Source: Thuidium tamariscinum | Lineage: Eukaryota; Streptophyta; Bryopsida; Hypnales; Thuidiaceae | Reading direction: 5' to 3' | NCBI GenBank assembly: GCA_947034885.2 | Contig: OX344750.2 | Span: forward strand, 13,758,053 to 13,822,052 | Length of the DNA: 64,000 nt | Shown: positions 14,153-62,583 of the stretch, one piece after another | Layout: each line of letters starts with the position of its first letter | Position numbering within the stretch: the first letter of the stretch is position 1 | Notes under the pieces: generated by a model | Told to the model about the DNA's origin: nothing | Databases searched by the model: none | Seen by the model: the letters and a program-made list of their open reading frames with translations, nothing else | Made by a program: the position numbers and the translations under genes

Positions 14153-15601
14153 GTGCTACCCTGGCAGAGGCAGAATAAGGCCGGGCCACCATCAACAAAG
14201 AGTTTTTGAGCGTTTGGCAAGGAGCACATCATTATGCCGCCACTGCACATGCATCACAATCTCATGAGAATGATATTCAAGATTGATATTGAACAATTTC
14301 TTGTAAGTAGGTAAATTTTGCAGTGTTTGAAACATCGGGGTTTAGGGTTTAGGATTATGAAACCAAACTCGTCATGTAATATTCAGTTGCCACTACCATT
14401 GTTTACTCGTCCTCTCGCAATGTTATGGCATTTGTAATCTGTACTCTAGGAGCCAGAGCTTCGCATTGCAACCATATTATGGCTTATTTCATACCAGAAA
14501 ACTTTAGTGAGGTCGGACCTGATTGCCATGATTTTATGGGACCATCAATGCGTTCGTGGATGGACTCTAAAACCTTCTGTTGCAAACTCATCAGTTGCAA
14601 GCAGGTTGACACAGAATTGGGTCAGTCCAAAATTCCTTGAATTTCTCAGTTCTACCGTAATTTGAAGGAATCAAGGATGTGTTCCAGTGCACTTCACTTG
14701 CACTCCATCTACTCAAGGTTATCAGTATTGCCTGGTGAGTTTTCCAAACTGTGCTTCCAATTTTCAGTGCAATTCAAGGTCATCTTTTGTGTGTGACTTG
14801 TTCAGCTTTTCTTCGCTATTCGCTTTAGATGAAGCTACTGGACGCTGTTTTTTTCTTTTCCGATGACAGTTAGGAGTAGGGTTCAAATTCTCAAGATTGG
14901 GATTGCGTTGTGCTGTGAAGCTATGCTTTCAAACAGAGAGGGAAACCCAAATCGCTAACCCTAAACTTGGTATCCTAATTTGGTACTGTATTGTGTTCGA
15001 ATGATCCGTGTTGCTATTATACGTTCGCTCTAGTGTTTGTAATTTTCGATACAGAAGCAGTTTCTTCTTTCTTCGGCCATGAGTATGAATGGATTAGGTC
15101 TATCTGCTTTCATTGAATTATCTGCTTACTCCACAAAACCTTAGTGGCAGTGGTGCCCTGTGATTGTTGGTTTAGTTTATGCATGACGCAAAGGAGCACT
15201 ACAGTGGTCTTCAATTCTAACGATTACAATTATAAAATTCGAATTAAGAATTCTTTGAAGCCACTTATTAATTCACTCTTTAATGGATCAAACCTGGTCA
15301 TGGCAACCTGATCACTGTTAATCTGTTGTTATGTTTGACCACCAGCATCAGTCTTGGAAACAAAGGGAAACCCTCAATGGAATTAGAAGAATCAGAAACA
15401 GGGGATGCAGCCATTGCCGTTGCACAATGGACGTGGGATTGCAACTATCCAACTCTTCCTTCTTTGTCTCGGTAGCAACACAGACTCTGTAATGCATTTG
15501 GTGTGAGGCTCATACTTTTGTGGTTACTACCGAGAAATTTCTAGAGTACATCCACCTTGTGAAGCCAGGAAGAGCGGCCTCGGTAGTCATGAATTCCAGA
15601 C
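14153..15601. other. Upstream region of the secreted-peptide gene, no firm gene
   Basis: A short frame at 15377-15475 encodes 32 residues (starting MELEESETGDAAIAVAQWTW) and could be a small exon, but it ends quickly and has no visible partners. Telomere-like TTTAGGGTTTAGG occurs near 14339. No other gene is supported. Confidence 0.3.
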
Positions 15602-15602
15602 C

Positions 15603-15609
15603 TATAAAA
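15603..15609 (+). promoter_or_regulatory. Probable TATA box of the secreted-peptide gene
   Basis: CCTATAAAAGG is a strong plant TATA box. About 120 bp downstream, a leader exon would end at a consensus 5' splice site (CTTG then GTAAGT, donor at about 15730), consistent with transcription starting near 15635. Confidence 0.5.
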
Positions 15610-15814
15610 GGTGAACCTCCAAGAGCCTTAACCATTCCATCCCCTCCATCTAGGTTGGTTCTCAAAGCAGTAATTTCCTTCAGCTTTTGGACTGGAAAAC
15701 TTCGAAGGATATCTTCTCTGTCCGGAGCTTGTAAGTTTCGATTTCTCTGCTTTTAGACGTAATGGTGTCTTGATGTGTCTTAATGCTTTTGGAGGAGTTC
15801 CATTGCTCGCATTT

Positions 15815-16282
15815 CAGCTTTAATTGCTTCTGCAGAAGAAATGTCGTACCTGTAGAGAGGCTTGTTGCGTACTTTTCTAATGAGTTTGGCCATAACAGGC
15901 CTTTCTGTTTCGATGATGCTTTTCACTCTTAGTTAAGCTCTTTCAAGGATCATGGATTGCTTGCTTCTTGTCAAGGGTAGCTAAGGGTTGTTGTTGAACC
16001 CTAACCCTAATTATTGAGACTGTCAAGCTGTTCGCTCCTCGTACTTTTTAGCATCGATTGCTTCTGTAGAAGAAATGTCGTAGTTGTAGATTGTTTTTTT
16101 GTTTTTTTCCTAATGAGTTTGGCCATGACAGACTCTTCTCCTTCCATGTTGCTTTCCTTTTCTTAATTCAGCTCTTTCGAGGTTCATGGATGGCTTGCTT
16201 TTTGTCGAGGGTAGTTAAGGGTTGCTGTCGACCCCAAACCCAATTAACCGAGAATGTCAAGCTGTTTGCTCTTGGTAATTAA
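15815..16282 (+). repeat. 234 bp tandem duplication within the leader intron
   Basis: TTGCTTCTGCAGAAGAAATG at 15824 recurs as TTGCTTCTGTAGAAGAAATG at 16058, and the following blocks (CTAATGAGTTTGGCCAT, CAAGGATCATGGATTGCTTG, CTAAGGGTTGTTGTTGA, GTCAAGCTGTTCGCTC) repeat in the same order and spacing. Both copies lie in the predicted 5'UTR intron of the gene that starts at 16326. Confidence 0.75.
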
Positions 16283-16325
16283 TCACTTAACCGTTTAAGC
16301 GTGTCGGATTGTGGCGCAGATCAAC

Positions 16326-16766
16326 ATGATGCGGGGGCTACTAGTATTGCTGTCCTTATGGCTCCTTCTGGTCCTTGCCAACCACGGAGAGGGCAGAGTG
16401 CTCCCAAACGATATGTTCAGCTTGCAGCGTGAAGAGTCCATGGAAGTAGTTGGTGTCTCGACTTCGAAGGGGAATCATCATGGGGCAGCACTCAAACCCG
16501 TGCCTTGCACATGGGTCTGTGGTGAAGGAGAGAATCATAACTATGAGTGCAATTGTATTCGAAATGCAACGAAGAAGGACGAACTTGTGGAAGCTGAGAA
16601 GATGACCGCCGCTCATGCTAAAGCTCGCAAACCTTTGCCTTGCACTTGGATCTGTGGTGAAGGAGAGAACCATAACTATGAGTGCAACTGTATCCCTAAT
16701 GCATTCATGGAGGAGGATGAGTTTATGGGTGCTCCTGTGAACGCTCTTATTGGTGGACATCACTGA
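16326..16766 (+). CDS. Small secreted protein with two cysteine-rich repeat motifs, 146 aa
   Basis: The first ATG gives MMRGLLVLLSLWLLLVLA, a clear signal peptide (residues 1 to about 23), so the product should enter the secretory pathway. The mature part carries two near-identical modules, CTWVCGEGENHNYECNC at residues 61-77 and CTWICGEGENHNYECNC at 106-122, each with spacing C-x3-C-x9-C-x-C. An acidic, basic-flanked linker separates them; basic pairs before the second module (KARK) could allow cleavage. The DNA of the two modules is also closely alike, indicating a recent internal duplication. A TATA box, leader exon and 3' splice site (GCGCAG just before 16320) support a real gene, as does an AATAAA at 16946. 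I do not recognise the family. A signalling or defence-type cysteine-rich peptide precursor is an inference from architecture only. Confidence 0.8.
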   Translation: MMRGLLVLLSLWLLLVLANHGEGRVLPNDMFSLQREESMEVVGVSTSKGNHHGAALKPVPCTWVCGEGENHNYECNCIRNATKKDELVEAEKMTAAHAKARKPLPCTWICGEGENHNYECNCIPNAFMEEDEFMGAPVNALIGGHH

Positions 16767-16945
16767 GGCACAAGAACCCATAAATTTTGCTTGGGAGTAT
16801 TGTTGGGATAACAGGAATTATGAAAGGAAATTCTCTTCCTCTTCTTGGGTTCAAGAGCTTCGGGGTGTAGTTCAACCATTTATGTTGTGACTTCTATGTT
16901 AGTTTAGCTATGAAACTTGGGATGAGGGGTTTGAATTATCCGAAT

Positions 16946-16951
16946 AATAAA
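16946..16951 (+). terminator. Poly(A) signal AATAAA
   Basis: AATAAA lies 180 bp after the stop of the secreted-peptide gene, followed by a T-rich stretch. Just downstream, TTTTTAACACGAT-type units repeat three times (about 16966-17006). Confidence 0.45.
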
Positions 16952-18208: not shown

Positions 18209-18685
18209 TCAGCCGTGCAATTTATCCTTAATCTTGCTAAAGACTGTCTCCCTCTTCACAGCATCTGTGTGCGGGCCAGGCTTCAAATTACCGTGGTGGT
18301 CCGTGAGCGCTTCCCCACCTGTCTCTTCCTGCTGACGCACATCGCTCTCTTCCTTCCCCGGCGCGGTGGAATCCACGACATTCCCTGGTGAGTCATTTCC
18401 CGTGTCAACAGTTCCATAAGGACTCGCCTCCGGTGTATGTCCAACGCCAGAGCCAACCGCAGCATCTGTACCCTCGTCGTCATTACGATGGTGGCCTTTA
18501 AACAACCCTTTCACTTTGTCCGCCATTGTTTTCTTCGGCTCAGGTGGCGCACCTCCGACCAAATTAGGATCCCCTACTTGCAAGTCCCGTTCTGGATGCG
18601 CAGTGTATGCGTCCCCCGTAGGCTTTGAAGGCGTGCTCCTCTTGTGACCCTGTCCATCCAGATCGTCACTGCTCAATCTCTCCAT
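18209..18685 (-). CDS. Dehydrin-like (group 2 LEA-like) protein, 158 aa
   Basis: The product is very hydrophilic, with no Cys or Trp from the chosen ATG at 18685, and is rich in Gly, Asp, Glu, His and Lys. Two segments resemble dehydrin K-segments (consensus EKKGIMDKIKEKLPG): KKTMADKVKGLFKG at residues 51-64 and KRETVFSKIKDKLHG closing the protein. Dehydrins bind membranes and proteins during drying or cold through such amphipathic helices. No Ser run or clear Y-segment is seen, so assignment to true dehydrins is tentative. The ATG at 18685 is chosen because a 5' splice site (CCAAG then GTGAGT at 18831) and a 3' splice site (TTTCTCAG before 18696) place a leader intron just upstream. The promoter carries ACGTGGC, fitting ABA control. 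Confidence 0.65.
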   Translation of the reverse strand: MERLSSDDLDGQGHKRSTPSKPTGDAYTAHPERDLQVGDPNLVGGAPPEPKKTMADKVKGLFKGHHRNDDEGTDAAVGSGVGHTPEASPYGTVDTGNDSPGNVVDSTAPGKEESDVRQQEETGGEALTDHHGNLKPGPHTDAVKRETVFSKIKDKLHG

Positions 18686-31814: not shown

Positions 31815-33758
31815 CTAATATAGCTTTAACCAATCTCTCTGCACTACTGTAAGATTTTGAATGGAGTTTTGACATCCAAGCAACAATTTCTCATAAATGA
31901 TACATTGAGGCTTTGAATGTGCAAAGTATAAACTAGATGATCGATGCAATTGAACCACTTTATGATTCTTAGGAAGTACGTACCGCCCATTGTTCTCCAA
32001 ATATGCTATTTGCATAAAATATCCAGCAAGCAATGCTTTCCTAATGTTGACATAATAGTTTTTATTGTTGAAGCCAAGACTATTTATTGGAAAGCCATAG
32101 CGGTTCATGATGTTGGCAAGTTGAGAGCGAATTTTATTAGCTAATTGCAAACTCCGTACATCAAGGAAGTTGTCATAACACCAAATAGCATCTTCACCAT
32201 TTTCTATCCAAGCTTGGTATACATTAAGAAGTATGAGGTGATCGCCATCAACATGTAAAAATTGGGCTTTTGCTTCATCAGCTATCTCTTGAGCATTCCT
32301 TGGTCGAAGAAAGCAATTAGGAGTTGAAAGCATGGCAACAATAGAAAGGATTTCCATGGAACAATTGAATGTGGGGCTAACCACTAGCATCTTTGCCAAT
32401 TGTGGATCCAAGGGAAATTCACCTATGATCTCTCCTAGCTTTGTCAAATTTGCATCTTCATCAATGGCCCCTAAGCTAAGAAGTAACTCAAGAGCTGAGG
32501 CAAGTGTTTGTGGTGCTGGTGGATCTATATAGTCAAAATGCACCAAATTATCCACACCTAATTTCTTGAGAGTAAGCATTGCTTTTGCCAAATTAGATCT
32601 TAGAATTTCAGGGCAAATTTGTGCTTGCATGTTGATGTAAGACACTTCGGTATAAAGTCGAAAGCACATTCCAGGTTGGGTACGACCAGCACGACCACTT
32701 CTTTGATCAGCACTCGCTTTACAAATGGGAGTAATTGAAAGTGATTCTCCACAAATTTGAGGATTATACACCTTTTGTTTGACAAAACCAGGATCCACCA
32801 CAAAAACTATACCTTCAATAGTAATTGAAGCTTCAGCAATATTTGTAGATACAACAATCTTTCGACCGAGAACTACATCAAAAACCTTTTGTTGCATGTT
32901 GAATGGTAGTGTAGAATAGAGAGGCATTATATGAAAGGGCCTTGTTGGATCCTTCAACTTTTGAAGCTTTTTGTTAATTTGTTTGCAAGCCTCTTCAATT
33001 TCTTCTTCTCCAGTTAAAAACAAAAGAATATCTCCAGGTGTTTTGAATAGATGAATCTCTACTACAATGTCAATTGCCTTCTCAAAATAATCTCGCACCT
33101 GTGTTGGAGTATAAACTATCTCTACTTGGTGTAGTCGACCTGGAATTTCCATGAGTGGGGCCTTGTCAAAATAGCGTTGAAAACTTGAAACCTCCAAGGT
33201 AGCACTCATAACAACAAGCTTCAAGTCGGGGCGTTCCTTTAGAACCTTAACCTTGAGCAATGCCAACAACACATCCATTGCTTCCGTCCTCTCATGAGCT
33301 TCATCAAGAATGATGATTTTGTAGCGTTGGAGTAAGGGATCCATCATGGCCTCTCTCAAAAGCATTCCATCCGTCAAATACTTCAACTTTGTTTTTGGAC
33401 CACTACACTCATTGAACCGAACACTATATCCAACTTCATCTCCAACTGTGACATCCATCTCATTTGCCACACGCCTTGCCATTGCTATGGCAGCCATTTT
33501 TCTTGGTTGTGTACATGCTACTTGATGTTTTGTGGTTGTATATCCTTCTTCAACTATAAATTGTGGAATTTGGGTAGTCTTGCCAGAGCCAATGTCACCC
33601 TTGAGGATGATTGTTTGATGGCATGCCAAAAGTTGTATTAAATTTTCCCGATGTTGCCACACTGGAAGAGTTTGTTGCTTTTGAAGAATATCATAGTACT
33701 TTGTAGAATAGAGCTTATTAGTGTGAGGATTCACTTGACAACCATTATGCAATGCCAT
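31815..33758 (-). CDS. Intronless DEAH-box RNA helicase, Prp43/DHX15 type, C-terminally truncated, 647 aa
   Basis: Prp43/DHX15 helicases release spliceosomes and act in ribosome assembly. The motifs are in order: I GDIGSGKTTQ (Lys60), Ia CTQPRKMAA, Ib YLTDGMLLREAM, II DEAHERT (152-158), III SATLE, IV LLFLTGEEEIE, V VSTNIAEASITIEG, VI QRSGRAGRT (352-360), then winged-helix, ratchet and OB regions. Motif I has Asp-Ile where the family has Glu-Thr. The frame is one uninterrupted exon, whereas plant orthologues normally have introns. It starts late, without the usual N-terminal extension, and stops at RDWLKLY, just before the conserved IAPHYYDL segment, so roughly 50 C-terminal residues are missing. 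It sits in AT-rich repeat DNA. A retrocopy is likely. All catalytic motifs survive, so either it is young or it is maintained; activity is uncertain. Confidence 0.75.
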   Translation of the reverse strand: MALHNGCQVNPHTNKLYSTKYYDILQKQQTLPVWQHRENLIQLLACHQTIILKGDIGSGKTTQIPQFIVEEGYTTTKHQVACTQPRKMAAIAMARRVANEMDVTVGDEVGYSVRFNECSGPKTKLKYLTDGMLLREAMMDPLLQRYKIIILDEAHERTEAMDVLLALLKVKVLKERPDLKLVVMSATLEVSSFQRYFDKAPLMEIPGRLHQVEIVYTPTQVRDYFEKAIDIVVEIHLFKTPGDILLFLTGEEEIEEACKQINKKLQKLKDPTRPFHIMPLYSTLPFNMQQKVFDVVLGRKIVVSTNIAEASITIEGIVFVVDPGFVKQKVYNPQICGESLSITPICKASADQRSGRAGRTQPGMCFRLYTEVSYINMQAQICPEILRSNLAKAMLTLKKLGVDNLVHFDYIDPPAPQTLASALELLLSLGAIDEDANLTKLGEIIGEFPLDPQLAKMLVVSPTFNCSMEILSIVAMLSTPNCFLRPRNAQEIADEAKAQFLHVDGDHLILLNVYQAWIENGEDAIWCYDNFLDVRSLQLANKIRSQLANIMNRYGFPINSLGFNNKNYYVNIRKALLAGYFMQIAYLENNGRYVLPKNHKVVQLHRSSSLYFAHSKPQCIIYEKLLLGCQNSIQNLTVVQRDWLKLY

Positions 33759-49329: not shown

Positions 49330-50556
49330 ATGGATTTATTGGAAGATCGCGTGGAATTCGCGGATCAATCCGACGAGAAAGTGGAACGCTCCAATCCAGA
49401 GCTCCATGCGGTTGCATTTGAATGTCCATCCGATTGTGACTTTGACAATATTGTCATTCTCCGCCCGTGGTTCATGCGCCCCTGGCTATGGAGCCAGCTC
49501 CCTGACGAGATTTTGGAGCTCATTATCGCCCGTCTCCCAGTTGCCCAAATCGACTCTCTCCGTTCCCTTTCCAAATCCTGGTACTTCAACATGACCCCCC
49601 ACTCGCACTTCAAGCGCCTCTGCGCTGAAGCTCGTCCCAAGCTCTTCGCCCTGATGCGCGCTGACCCCCAACGCAGCAAGATCCGCTTCAAGCTCTTCGA
49701 CAGCCGCTCCTTCACCTGGCACAACTGCGAGTACACTCTCAGCAAGGACTATCGTCACTCGCTCTGCGTCTCCGACAACGGACTAGTTTGCTTCGTCCCC
49801 GGTAGTTCACAAATTCCCATTTTAGTCTGCAACCCCTTAACAAACGACTGGAGAACACTTCCTTTACCGTCTCTGATCCGCCACAAGCCTCGCATGATTC
49901 AACTTCTTGTTGGAGCCCGAAGCTACCGGTTAACCATCGTTGGCGCTCTTGGTCCTGAGCTTCTGGGAGCCGAAGTTTATGATTCAAATCTCCAGAAATG
50001 GGAAACCGTAAACCAAGGGTTTATCACTGGCTATGTCGATTACCGATTGCAGTTCGATGCACATAACCCCTCGCGTGGTGAGAGTTTAGGGGTTTACGAT
50101 TGCAGGAAAAAGTTGCTTACTGGACTGGATTGCTGTGAAGAGATTGCGAGGTTGCAATTCTCGGCGGCGGTGAAGGAGAGAGTGTTTGTGTTGGAGTCTG
50201 CTGGGCACGAGATTGTGGAGTTACAAGGGGTGGAGTACAGAGACTCGCGGAGAGTTATTAAAATTCCGAAGCAAACGAGGCGAGGCTCAAGGTTAGATTT
50301 GAACTATGGTGTGCATACGGCGATTCATGCTTGTAATGGATTGGTGTTGGTTACAGAAGGGGCAGGGTTTGCGAGTAAGCTTCCGGAGAAGGAATGGAGA
50401 GTGGGATATGGGCATCGGTTCTATCTATTTGACATGGGGAGAGGATCCTGGTGGACGCTGCCGAGCTTGGAGAAAGAGTATGATGTGTTTGCGTATAATG
50501 CAAGAGACGTTTCGGAAGCGTTGATGTGTAAGCTGAATTGGTGGGCTCGTCCTTAG
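49330..50556 (+). CDS. F-box protein, single exon, 408 aa
   Basis: F-box proteins recruit substrates to SCF ubiquitin ligases. The F-box spans about residues 53-97: LWSQLPDEILELIIARLPVA, then SLRSLSKSWYFNMTPHSHFK. The C-terminal part (about 150-400) has kelch or F-box-associated-like features (VCNPLTNDWRTLPLPS; AEVYDSNLQKWETV; DMGRGSWWTLPSLEKEYDVF), consistent with a beta-propeller substrate domain. The start is the first ATG in frame, at 49330; upstream codons lack an ATG. Third-position G/C is high in the first half and falls towards the end. The target is unknown. The 3' end has a decayed tandem duplicate downstream. Confidence 0.8.
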   Translation: MDLLEDRVEFADQSDEKVERSNPELHAVAFECPSDCDFDNIVILRPWFMRPWLWSQLPDEILELIIARLPVAQIDSLRSLSKSWYFNMTPHSHFKRLCAEARPKLFALMRADPQRSKIRFKLFDSRSFTWHNCEYTLSKDYRHSLCVSDNGLVCFVPGSSQIPILVCNPLTNDWRTLPLPSLIRHKPRMIQLLVGARSYRLTIVGALGPELLGAEVYDSNLQKWETVNQGFITGYVDYRLQFDAHNPSRGESLGVYDCRKKLLTGLDCCEEIARLQFSAAVKERVFVLESAGHEIVELQGVEYRDSRRVIKIPKQTRRGSRLDLNYGVHTAIHACNGLVLVTEGAGFASKLPEKEWRVGYGHRFYLFDMGRGSWWTLPSLEKEYDVFAYNARDVSEALMCKLNWWARP

Positions 50557-56213: not shown

Positions 56214-59200
56214 TCAATTCAGGGAAAGCTCAACGACTAAGGGGCTGTTCCCTTTCACAACCTCAAACTCTACAGCATGTTCACCAAGTTCCCCCAAGTC
56301 TACAAAAGCCTTGTAACGCCCGAGATAACCCCGGAAAGGGAATTGCCCAGACTCATCAGTTCTTCCTTGAAGTCTGGTGGTCCACTCCTCCCTCAAAGAG
56401 ATGAGACGCTTACCAGCGGCATTGACACGGTTGTCAGAATCGACAAGATGACCGTTCTCTCTGGACAACGCTCCTTCCCGGAAACCCCAGAGCATGATCC
56501 CCTCCACATTAGGATGAGCAAAGGACTCTCGCAGCATAACCTTGAAAAGGACCAAAATATTATATGAATGTTAATAATTGGGTGTAGCAATAACCCAGTG
56601 TGAAAGATTATAAATATATTCGATAAAAGCCCAAGCCTACGTGCATTGTAACTTCACCCTACGTGCCCGAGCGGACAGAAATGGCTGCTTGCGTATCAAT
56701 GCGAGTTGAGATAAACAATCTAAGAGCCTTCAAGGAAGCTAACAAAAATGTACCAATAAAAAGACGAAATCATACCCTAAAATATTGAACGAGAGAAATA
56801 TGTTTGTAAGTTACTATTATCAACTATTAGCTTCCAAAGTGGACTTTAGATTCTATTCTGGGTAAATATAAGAGATCCAAGCGCATCCAATCACCTGACC
56901 CTTGAAAACAAATCCTTCGAGTATGACAACAAAAAACATTTGAAACAATCAGAACCTCGATTACTTAGTCACCTAATATTTGCGCTCTTAACAACAAGAT
57001 ATTAATTGAAAGCAATGCAGAGAGACTATGAGGAGTAAATTGTACCTCAAGGTCGTCAGCTCGGATATGCTCATTAGCTGCCGCAACGTCGATTTCAGTC
57101 ATCCATATTGGTAGGTCCAACTTGCTCAATTTGTCCAAAGAATTTCGAATGATAGGACCAATTGGGGTGTCCGCGTGACCCTGTACCCCAATTGCTCCAA
57201 CGGGTGCACCTTCTTTCAGGAGCCACTCAATATGTTTAACGTATTTATCGGGAGAGGAGTTTCCATCTACTCCATCTTCAACATGATAATCATTCACAAA
57301 GAGAATTGCCTCATGGTCGTACTGATGAGCCAATTTGTACATATAGGGCAATATGTCTGGATTCAACCGATTTTGATAAAAGCAACCATGAAGCATCTCA
57401 TTATTTACATCATAGTGTTGAAACTTTCCCTTGTAACGATTCAGGACATCAACTGCTCGAGTGTGCAAAGCGTCTCTCAATTCTGAAGACGTGAGCTTCT
57501 TGAGCCAATCCTGGCAGTTGTTCTCGTCTTCCCAGAAGATGCAATGGCCTCGCATAGGTATGTGATGTTGTGAGCAGAAATTCACCATCTCATCTGCGTC
57601 GCTGTAATTGAACTGCCCACACATTATCATCGTGAGCACAAGAAAACTTAGAAGTGACATAAGAATGTTGAGAAAGTACCTGGAAATTCACTGTACAACA
57701 TGCTTGTGATGGTAATTACTTAGCACGAAACCATCTGTGACATCATACCTAACAGACCCGCGACCATGAATTTCCTTTCAACCGCATCAGCTAGAGAATA
57801 AAAAAATTATTAGCAGCGAGAAAACAATTGCACAACGCACAACAAGACTGCTCTAACTAATCGTACATCAAAGCTAATAAAAAGTGAAAGGAATGGAGGC
57901 AAATTTTAAGACAAATTCGTTCAACATTTAAGCATGAGACAGTGGCAATACGGGAAGTGGACATCATGCGTTAGGAAACAGCGCCACACACTATATGTAA
58001 CAAAGGAAAACCACTCACAGTGTCACGGTGGGGCTCAGTCCAACTCCACTTAAGTTCATTCTCAAAAACTGCCCAGTTAAAGTTTTGTAGAAAAAACTGC
58101 GTGTAGCTGCTGTTGTCCAAACTCCAACGGTTGATGCAAGAACCAAGTGGGAAACTCCTACTCGTCTGCTCAATCCTCACACAAATGCCAGGTGGAAAAG
58201 GCAATCTGCTTCGTCTCTGTAGTTTAAGAATTACATCTCGCTTCCGGATCTGTAGAGTTCACGTTTATAAGAAATTGTACATGTCAGAAACACATCACTG
58301 CCACAGAGAACAATAAACACAATAAGCAACATCCAGAGTAGAACACTATACTGATGCTGGCGTCATCCTAAAAATACCGGCGTACCTTGTCAGCTTGAGC
58401 CTTCAAGATTGGAATTCGAGCACTTCTGTCGACAGCAAATATTTGCAATCCTGCAAATATTATTTGAACATCAACCCATATATCTCCTAAACCTATACGT
58501 AAGAGAATGTAGTCTAGACAATAGTGGCCAATCATTGGCAAGAGTTACTTCGTTGACAGCTAAACAAGCTGAAAATGTATTTTTAGAATGCTACTTGGAA
58601 ACAAAGATCACAGAATTTAAGAAGCCGAACTTAAGGATTCACTTAAGAATTTAAGAAGTCGAGGGGGACACTTGAGAAGGTCCTTACCAGCAAGCATAAG
58701 ATCTACACCAGGTTCTGGTCCTTGGACATGAACCATTACATAATTCGGCTTATTCTCCAGCCGGAATGATCCCATTATCTCTTTCCACGAATTTTGATCA
58801 ACTTCCACTTCTCCTCCAGTCACCCATTTTCCATCTAAACTCAGCGCAACATTTACTTTTTGTCCAGTCTTACCATGGCATTTCCCAACACACACCCAAG
58901 CGGAGACTTGGTAGACCACAAAGAGCTCTAATTTGTCGGTGATGTTTTGGGCAGGACCTTCCCACCACTGTGTCCGGTTGGAAGCAATAAGACAATTTCC
59001 ACTCAAACAAGGAGAGCATGGTAGAGACAGAGCAGCAGCTGGCGGGACGCAAGTCGGAGCTCCGGAGGAAATGAATAGCCGTGCAGAGCCCTGTCCGAAC
59101 CAATGTTTTACACCAAGTTGAAAGTTGTGGTTTTCCACTATATTCACACCGTATTTTGGATTCTGCCGTAAAGTCCATGTTCGCCAGTGTTAGCAGATAG

Positions 59201-62200
59201 GCACAAAGTCAGCGATCACATCTTCTACGAAGAACTACTATACCCTGATCGCAAGAGTGTCCCACAGGAGTGCCAAGAAGAACAGCAAAATATGCTTGCA
59301 ACTTATCTCTAAAATTTCTAAAAACAATCACGAAGTGTAAGTACTGGAAGGCAAGCATTTGAAAATTAAAGGTTGTGAAAAGCAGATATATTTGTAAAGA
59401 ATTTCAAAATATTAGCCTGTCTACGTACCTAATTTGAGGTCAAAATATTCACAAGGTAGTGAGTGCATTCAACGTCTATTTAGCACTCTAAGTATACAAG
59501 ACTGCTCCTGTATCAAAAAGAGCTTATCAGATGGAGATGCTTACATTGAGGATGCTTTCGATGATACAAACACGTATATACTCATGAAATACTAACCGTA
59601 ATGATGGGGCGTCTGGTTGGCTCTGGTTTCGCAGTAGGTTGGATAAAGAAGCTGTCTACCAGAATATCTGTTCCTGGTGGCGGACCTTCTAAGTAAACAG
59701 ACACTTTCGCTGGTACATTCTGCAATATCAGCCTCCCCTCCAAATGCTTCCACTCAGTCGCGTTTGCTTCTAAACTGCACCAATAGTCATATACAACTCT
59801 TTTACTGACAAGAATCAGAAGGATGACAACGCACATGCCCACACTCAACAAATATGCTGGCATGATTTACATTTCTTACAACTAGTGATAATTAATATCA
59901 GGTGGAATTTAAGCGTGTAAAAGATTCCCGGAAGCTTCTTGAGCCTTACGCTGCTGACTGGAAATGAAACACATCTGCAAATACCAAATGGTACTAGAAC
60001 CCACCCTGATGATGAATTTTTGCTAAACCACCAACCTTCCCAAAGTGATGTAACGCTCGGTGTTGTCAACTTCTAGGAGGTACAGAGTGGCCTTCACAAT
60101 TGCCTTGGAACAAGGTCCAGAAATGCGAACAGTAGCCACAACGTCATACACAGTCTCCAGATCTATCCGATCCGTGATGGTCTGCTCAATACCGGACCAG
60201 GTGTTTGTACGTTGAGTTGCCATAGCGAAACACTTTCCCTCCAACGGAAGAACTTCTGGATTCTCTAAACAATAACACACGAACCCTCTGCACCCTCTGA
60301 GCTTCCAGTTTTTTAACCCATGAGTAAAGGTTGCATTGTGTACGATGCTTTCAACAACTCGGACTCCTGTACCGCAAGCTTCCGTCCTCTAATAAGAATC
60401 AAGAAGTAGGTACGCCAATTTAGTATCTAATCAGTTCATGGTGCACATCTAGAAACAAGGGGAAATTGGAAATGATCACTTTGGAAAAAAATTGAAGAAC
60501 CGCATTTTCTAAGCAAAGATCATCACATCTAAACTTCAACATTGAGTTGCAGGGCTAAACCCAAGATGGAAAGCGACACGAGGAGTAAATATACTAAGAA
60601 CTTGAAAACAGTTGACAAGAGTACTTGCCAATTTCTTGAGAGGAGAACCCTGACACCCCGGAGTAGTAGCATGCTTGATAATAACTGTTGATACCAATAA
60701 ATCTACACCATGCGGGGGCCCCTCTATATAGAAGACTGCTTTTTGATGGTGTGCGTCCAGATGAAGCTTGCCTTCAAGCACAACCCACTCTGTGCTTGAT
60801 GCCTTCACCCTAGCAGCTTGTCAACATTACATCAGGAATAAATCAGTTCATCACTCACAAAAGTGTGATCTATAGAACAGGAATAAAATGCTAATACTCA
60901 CCCAACTTCATCAGATAGGAGTGCTTTGGATTCATGGATAAAGAAGGAACAAGTACCCAAACAGCCACGCCAGCATTCGGATAAAACAAAAAATGGGACT
61001 AGGCAAAGTCAGAAATAAACACTTTCGAGACAGAAAGAAGATGCATACCTTCCAACAGATATGTAGCGTGTGTTGGAGGCTTTATATTCAAGTCGAACTG
61101 TGGCCAGCACATTGGCTCCTTCGTGAGGTTTCCCTGCAGTGCGGACTATTGCTACCACAAGATAGGTTTCATCAGGCTGCACTAGGGCAGTGATGTCTTG
61201 CTCAATCCCCTGCCATCCCTCTACTCTGTCCAAAGCTAAGGCAAAAGGTTTTCCCCTTGGCCCCATAATGCCTTTCCATCCATGTAAACCCGAATGGATG
61301 ACTTTGCAGCAGATCCCTGACCATCCCTGGATTCCAGTGTCGAAATTTGGGTTGACAAGGACATTCCCCTCCAAGTCCACCTCCTTAGGTTCTTTAAAAG
61401 AAAATTCCTGCAGTGTATGGTGACATAATCCTGGTATGTCAATCAAAAGTATCCCTTCACTTGGTGATAACAGTCTACAGAAAAATCGAAAAACCCTTTA
61501 TATATACCTGGAAGAAACTGACTGCCCATCGCAAGATGAAACAAATTAAAACCTAGATACTGTGAATGGCATTGAGCTCGCAGAACTTACAGGTTCCGGC
61601 TTTGATGGTACGATAGAGAAAGAGCTAGCAAGTATATCTATCCCCACGGGAGGTCCTTCCAAGTACACTAAAGCTTTGACAGGTGCCACGCTCACTTCCA
61701 TCTTGCCTTTTAACAAAGCCCATTGTCGTCTCGACACAGGCCCGCTGCATTCAGAAAAAGTACTACATAAGACATGCTAGTAACCTTGACATGACAGTAT
61801 CACTGGAGAATATTGAGAAGCACATGGTGAGAACAAGAAATGCACAAAGATTAACCAAAACGAAGAATCAGGGAGTTTACATCATGCCGCTGGCAGAAAC
61901 CAACATAGTCACCCACTCTCTGCTACAAACACCATACCTCTATCAGATCCAATGGCACCAATATACTTCAAAACAACTCTAATAAACCCTTCACAAAATC
62001 ACTTTCCTTCTGGGTATTCGTGAACAATTCACTCTGCAAGGTACAGAAGCGCATACACACCTGGCAAGTGTAGAGTAAGTGACCTGGCCCCCTGCATTCT
62101 CAAGCTTTACTGTAGCCCGCACATCGGCTAGCTCTACATGACCAGAAATGGAAACGCAAGCTTCGACTTTGTACTCCACACCTGCCTAGATGAAGAGTGA

Positions 62201-62583
62201 GGAGCGTAATGAGTGACAAGACTAATCGCATCCAATACATCTTAACAATTTGAATTTCCATCTTCCATACAGCACGAGGTATCAGATAGTGACGTATTAT
62301 CAGGAAGCACAGCAAGGGATGTAAGACATATATGCATTTTTAAGCTAGATTTCAGCGCTTGCTGTAAAATTCTAACCTTCAATCGACCAGTGATATCTTG
62401 TGCAATACCCTGCCACAATTGTGTACGATTTTGTGCAATGCAATAAAATTGATGTCCACTCGGCGGGCCTCCGCATTGAGGGAGAACATCGCTAATTGAC
62501 ATCGAGCAGCACAGGGGCTGCCAGCCATGGTCTGAGCCCCATATGAATGAAGGGTTGACAATCAAATTTCTCGTCCCAGCCAT
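56214..62583 (-). CDS. Endo-beta-1,4-xylanase with four CBM22-like modules and a GH10 domain, 1073 aa
   Basis: GH10 xylanases cleave the xylan backbone of cell walls. Coding exons (transcript order): 62583-62377, 62185-62061, 61744-61591, 61407-61049, 60809-60629, 60388-60036, 59774-59597, 59162-58688, 58450-58386, 58249-58019, 57612-57046, 56540-56214; all join in phase. Four CBM22-like modules start NLIVNPSF, NVLVNPNF, ESIVHNATF and VNIVENHNF; each has a W(Q/S/E)G(I/P)xQxIT-type block and ends near YLEGPPPGxDxL. GH10 (about 680-1073) includes FNWAVFENELKW, acid/base Glu848 in DVNNEM and nucleophile Glu949 in WMTEIDV. No signal peptide is visible. An in-frame TGA upstream, in the spliced leader, supports the ATG at 62583. 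The intron after 60629 appears to be GC-AG. Family relatives include plant XYN proteins. Confidence 0.88.

Follow-up and report, generated by a model that had tools for sequence, protein, structure and literature searches.

In a 64,000-nucleotide window of the genome assembly of Thuidium tamariscinum (GCA_947034885.2, contig OX344750.2, positions 13,758,053 to 13,822,052 of the forward strand), the listing of open reading frames (ORFs) includes a 146-residue ORF on the + strand at 16326..16766 (all positions are those of the window), in which two near-identical cysteine modules lie downstream of a hydrophobic N-terminus. Twin modules of this kind in a secreted protein had been proposed in an initial annotation, and the ORF and its modules are indeed present: the pattern C-x3-C-x9-C-x-C occurs at the two module sites and nowhere else in the six frames of the whole window. 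Among 100 dinucleotide-preserving shuffles of the window, single matches to the pattern averaged 0.03, and two matches within one ORF were found in 0/100. The parts of the predicted protein are as follows.

16326..16766, + strand: coding exon, 146 amino acids, from the first ATG downstream of an in-frame TAA at 16296
16326..16394, + strand: signal-peptide-like region by hydropathy, residues 1-23; cleavage uncertain, after A18 or G23 by the -3/-1 rule
16494..16568, + strand: module 1 core KPVPCTWVCGEGENHNYECNCIRNA, residues 57-81
16506..16556, + strand: module 1, CTWVCGEGENHNYECNC, pattern C-x3-C-x9-C-x-C
16563..16571, + strand: sole N-glycosylation sequon of the protein, N80-A-T, adjoining module 1
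16569..16628, + strand: spacer of 20 residues (82-101), containing K83-K84 and ending in R101 of the R101-K102 pair
16629..16703, + strand: module 2 core KPLPCTWICGEGENHNYECNCIPNA, residues 102-126
16641..16691, + strand: module 2, CTWICGEGENHNYECNC, pattern C-x3-C-x9-C-x-C
16704..16763, + strand: acidic tail FMEEDEFMGAPVNALIGGHH of 20 residues (127-146), without K or R

The modules are offset by 135 nucleotides and are identical at 16/17 residues and 47/51 bases, with the segment GEGENHN fully conserved and common to both. All eight cysteines of the protein lie within the modules, four in each, together with one histidine per module; additional histidines occur outside the modules in HH pairs. 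At the N-terminus (MMRGLLVLLSLWLLLVLANHGEG/RV), an arginine is followed by a strongly hydrophobic stretch, and thus the signal-peptide-like start that had been annotated is borne out by hydropathy, from which we infer a signal peptide proper and a protein that is probably secreted. About 33 residues of leader then separate the hydrophobic N-terminus from the module 1 core. The length of 146 residues and the patterned cysteines fit the broad class of small secreted cysteine-rich plant proteins, with the signal peptide of that class judged here by hydropathy only. As read from the sequence, the N80 sequon, which lies near module 1 only, is one predicted difference between the two halves of the molecule.

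Constraint on the repeat

Over the 25-codon core, the two copies differ by nine changes, which in the + frame are six synonymous and three non-synonymous, whereas the other five frames would each contain 6 to 8.5 non-synonymous changes. Because the changes are mostly synonymous in the + frame only, they support this reading frame. The copies retain 22/25 core residues in common, and the corresponding estimates are dS ∼0.54 and dN ∼0.05 (synonymous and non-synonymous divergence, from 25 codons with only 15.6 synonymous sites). When nine changes were placed at random in the core, 62/20000 placements were free of stop codons and had as few amino-acid changes as observed, and a stop was created in 7458/20000. 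For the four changes of the 17-codon module alone, 419/20000 random placements were as conservative, and so small a module is less telling by itself than the 25-codon core.

These figures bear directly on the suspicion that the ORF is spurious or belongs to a dead gene. Its length lies within the range of chance, since 15/100 shuffled windows have an ATG-started ORF at least as long (a count that takes in the stop-to-stop piece from its first ATG), and an antisense ORF overlaps it; the protein-level constraint between the copies in the + frame only, the patterned cysteines, and the gene signals around the ORF all speak for a functional gene, and we regard a spurious or dead ORF as very improbable. 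The antisense ORF itself is 141 residues long (16356-16781, − strand), and the between-copy changes argue against its being coding.

The high DNA identity of the modules had been attributed to recent duplication or gene conversion, which we reject because the silent sites would then be alike too. Instead, the synonymous sites differ substantially, and in ungapped alignment the 11 codons to each side of the core share only 13/33 and 12/33 bases. The coding repeat is traceable at the DNA level over 105 nucleotides at 80%, and the pattern reads as duplication of a 135-nucleotide unit whose flanks drifted while its core was held. Both copies of the module thus seem to be under constraint and kept alike by selection, and conversion long ago is possible.

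Gene model

The surroundings of the ORF suggest a plausible and complete-looking gene, with a TATA box, an ATG-free leader, an intron in the 5′ untranslated region (UTR), a single coding exon and a poly(A) signal, all of them predicted. Its elements outside the coding exon are the following.

15601..15610, + strand: TATA-box-like element in the context CCTATAAAAGG, a prediction from sequence
15633..15730, + strand: predicted 5′ leader exon, start approximate, 0 ATG
15731..16319, + strand: predicted 589-nucleotide 5′ UTR intron, donor GTAAGT at 15731, acceptor GCGCAG/ATC ending at 16319
15812..16280, + strand: tandem repeat of two head-to-tail units, each ∼234 bp, within the predicted intron and with no relation to the repeat in the coding exon
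16943..16951, + strand: poly(A)-signal-like AATAATAAA, 177 bases 3′ of the stop codon

The window has a single CTATAAAAG on its + strand and none on its − strand, and the looser TATA[AT]A is common (65 occurrences on the + strand), so the position of the element counts for more than the match. Likewise, the nonamer AATAATAAA is found once on the + strand and never on the − strand, with AATAAA alone occurring 51 times on the + strand. The acceptor CGCAG of the predicted intron ends seven bases 5′ of the ATG, and splicing would remove the 15 ATGs that the intron contains; the weak points of the model are that the + strand of the window has 17 copies of GTAAGT in all and that the pyrimidine tract of the acceptor is poor. 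Introns in the 5′ UTR can raise expression. The two intron copies share 185/234 aligned bases with 2 gap columns (distance 0.25), which provides a rough neutral yardstick, of unspecified age, for divergence at the locus. We considered whether this 234-bp repeat is linked to the 135-nucleotide coding repeat and rejected a connection, as both period and sequence differ.

Comparison with known families

The initial annotation had recognised no family for the protein, and within the Pfam, NCBIfam and PDB libraries this stands: no match was above cut-offs or clear of shuffled controls, which consisted of seven versions of the protein in which the residues of both modules were shuffled but the cysteines left in place, plus the reversed protein. 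The top Pfam match, PCYCGC (PF13798; E 0.0027), scored 18.1 bits where 25 are required, and was set aside because a shuffled-module control reached E 0.0096 (16.3 bits) with the same family and the 76-residue module region alone gave only 0.17. Another of the seven shuffled controls matched Gallidermin at E 0.0044, and the lowest Pfam E of the reversed protein was 0.15. Two NCBIfam matches (E 0.023 and 0.03) were both far under their cut-offs. The whole protein had no match by sequence in the PDB at E ≤10, and a profile of the module had four, the best of them an arginine methyltransferase at E 0.12, which we took as chance.

One could suppose that the protein belongs to a known family, whether EPF/EPFL, EGF-like or one of plants that Pfam lacks, and has diverged so far that the profiles miss it. 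The motif Y-x-C-x-C within a hairpin is common to EPF/EPFL and EGF domains, and the Pvs28 EGF model matched at E 0.07 for the protein (13.7 bits) and 0.02 for the 76-residue module region (15.4 bits; cut-off 26). We set this match aside as well, since it is below the cut-off and shuffled controls reach lower E values (0.0044 and 0.0096) with other families. EGF-like domains have six cysteines and carry Y-x-C-x-C in a hairpin; the modules share that motif and have four cysteines, two of the six being missing, and Pvs28 was the only EGF-type model listed, so that cysteine count, by the usual definition of the domain, and profile score both place the protein outside the EGF-like group. Considering also the cysteine count of EPF/EPFL and the lack of a structural match in the PDB to the predicted module, we think a diverged member of a known family quite improbable.

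The EPF/EPFL peptides (stomagen and its relatives) offer the closer comparison. They are described as secreted plant cysteine-rich peptides of two antiparallel strands connected by a loop, with disulfides; their mature form has six or eight conserved cysteines, and they act through ERECTA-family receptors and TMM (PMC3670920). The likeness is one of outline, a disulfide-held hairpin scaffold that here is modelled only; the differences are that the loop of those peptides is long and their cysteines number six or eight, whereas here each module has four cysteines and a short turn and the chain carries two modules. Because the family needs six or eight cysteines, we conclude that the protein is not an EPF/EPFL member: each module has four, and the chain reaches eight only as two identical sets. 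Pfam listed no EPF model at E ≤10, a search in which HMMER filters drop most matches above ∼0.1.

Three further collections, which contain no plants by design, gave nothing: in bacterial and archaeal contigs (genome_contigs) 22 stretches fit a pattern and 0 were confirmed, in viral_contigs 3 fit and 0 were confirmed, and plasmids had no tblastn match at E ≤10. A tblastn search of the window for a second copy of the gene found, besides the gene itself, three matches at E 0.36 to 8.3, none of which represents a copy. No paper was found in a literature search for the module strings, a search whose reach ends short of supplementary sequence tables. The protein is therefore unmatched in Pfam, NCBIfam, the PDB and the prokaryote, viral and plasmid collections, which is not the same as absent from plants, and its novelty is provisional.

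Predicted structure

A model of the module built from the two copies takes the form of a beta-hairpin that turns at GENHN; its mean predicted local distance difference test (pLDDT) score is 71, rising to 85 and 79 in the blocks of ten residues that contain the hairpin. The full-length single-sequence model likewise folds both modules into hairpins, but its confidence is low (mean pLDDT 48). With moderate confidence, then, each module may be modelled as a beta-hairpin whose strands CTWVCGE and YECNCIR flank the GENHN turn. Two disulfides would hold the hairpin; in the symmetric register, C2 would face C3 and C1 would be diagonal to C4.

Such a hairpin also resembles, in outline, the two-disulfide antimicrobial hairpins, and the four cysteines and one histidine of each module, with HH pairs outside, might suggest metal binding; in either case the benefit of a second copy would be greater capacity or potency, not the clamping of a receptor. 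The modules have calculated isoelectric points of 5.5 and 4.8 (neutral to acidic), unlike cationic antimicrobial hairpins, and cysteines of secreted proteins are usually oxidised, which is unfavourable to metal binding. We judge this explanation unlikely.

Neighbouring features of the window

An ORF of 158 residues (18209-18685, − strand) is dehydrin-like and has the C-terminal end VFSKIKDKLHG; it had no Pfam match at E ≤0.1. This end is near the dehydrin K-segment as it is quoted in the literature, EKKGIM(E/D)KIKEKLPG (PMC8100072). Further along are an intronless DEAH-box helicase ORF of 647 residues with helicase, HA2 and OB domains (31815-33758, − strand), which gives the impression of possibly being a retrocopy, and an F-box ORF of 408 residues (49330-50556, + strand; Pfam F-box E 8.3e-07, Kelch_6 under cut-off). 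Pieces of a GH10 xylanase gene lie at 56214-62583 on the − strand (Pfam E 8.8e-32 at 56965-57657), with CBM_4_9 matching weakly at 62242-62580 (18.4 bits where the cut-off is 25.9), and all of these are probably exons of one gene. The xylanase fragment and the F-box, DEAH-helicase and dehydrin-like ORFs mark the surroundings of the gene as those of a plant. No Rfam family at gathering score and no tRNA gene was found in the window.

Discussion

The initial annotation had left two functions for the twin layout, a precursor of two related peptides or a two-headed binding protein. We tentatively favour, as a reading that falls somewhat short of probable, a small extracellular two-headed cysteine-rich protein from a nuclear plant gene, acting as a bivalent ligand or binding protein. 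Following removal of the signal peptide, the protein would reside outside the cell, where the GEGENHN turn in both hairpins would present the same contact surface twice; the mass calculated for residues 24-146 is ∼13.6 kDa, whereas single released peptides would each have roughly 2.8 kDa. The 20-residue spacer, if flexible, would then allow one molecule to hold two copies of one partner, which might be the ectodomain of a receptor or some constituent of the wall.

Alternatively, the protein could be a precursor that proteases cut to release two related peptides of four cysteines each, serving as signals or in defence. Near-identical modules downstream of a signal-like N-terminus are what such a precursor might look like, and basic pairs are found at K83-K84, after module 1, and at R101-K102, just before module 2, where R101-K-P-L also fits the R-x-x-L sites that plant subtilases use. 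However, these are the only basic pairs in the protein and hence do not frame both units: module 1 has none immediately N-terminal to it, and the sequence after module 2 lacks K and R altogether. Moreover, both module-adjacent lysines are followed by proline, and a K-P bond is poorly cut by trypsin-like proteases. Multi-peptide precursors do exist in plants, such as that of the sweet-potato wound peptides, likewise reported as repeated units in a secreted chain; the present protein differs in that its units are cysteine modules and its possible cleavage sites fail to bracket both of them. The twin layout itself stands, the basic pairs lend weak support to processing, and we consider peptide release, the main rival, a rather unlikely possibility. 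An uncleaved chain would suit the lack of a basic pair on the C-terminal side of module 2, and the two-headed protein, which needs no processing, is tentatively preferred over peptide release.

A bolder extension of the two-headed protein, which we hold to be distinctly unlikely, is that it represents an undescribed, lineage-restricted family of extracellular plant ligands, in which a minimal 17-residue two-disulfide hairpin occurs twice per chain and clamps two receptors together.

Small secreted cysteine-rich proteins carry out much of plant cell-to-cell signalling and defence. If the family is already named in a plant database, the finding becomes ordinary. If the two-headed reading is true, a chain with the same minimal hairpin twice, selection having held both copies alike, would lend itself well to testing how bivalent ligands act, and the 17-residue module is small enough for synthesis. 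Should the number of modules vary among relatives, this would show such ligands arising by unit duplication.
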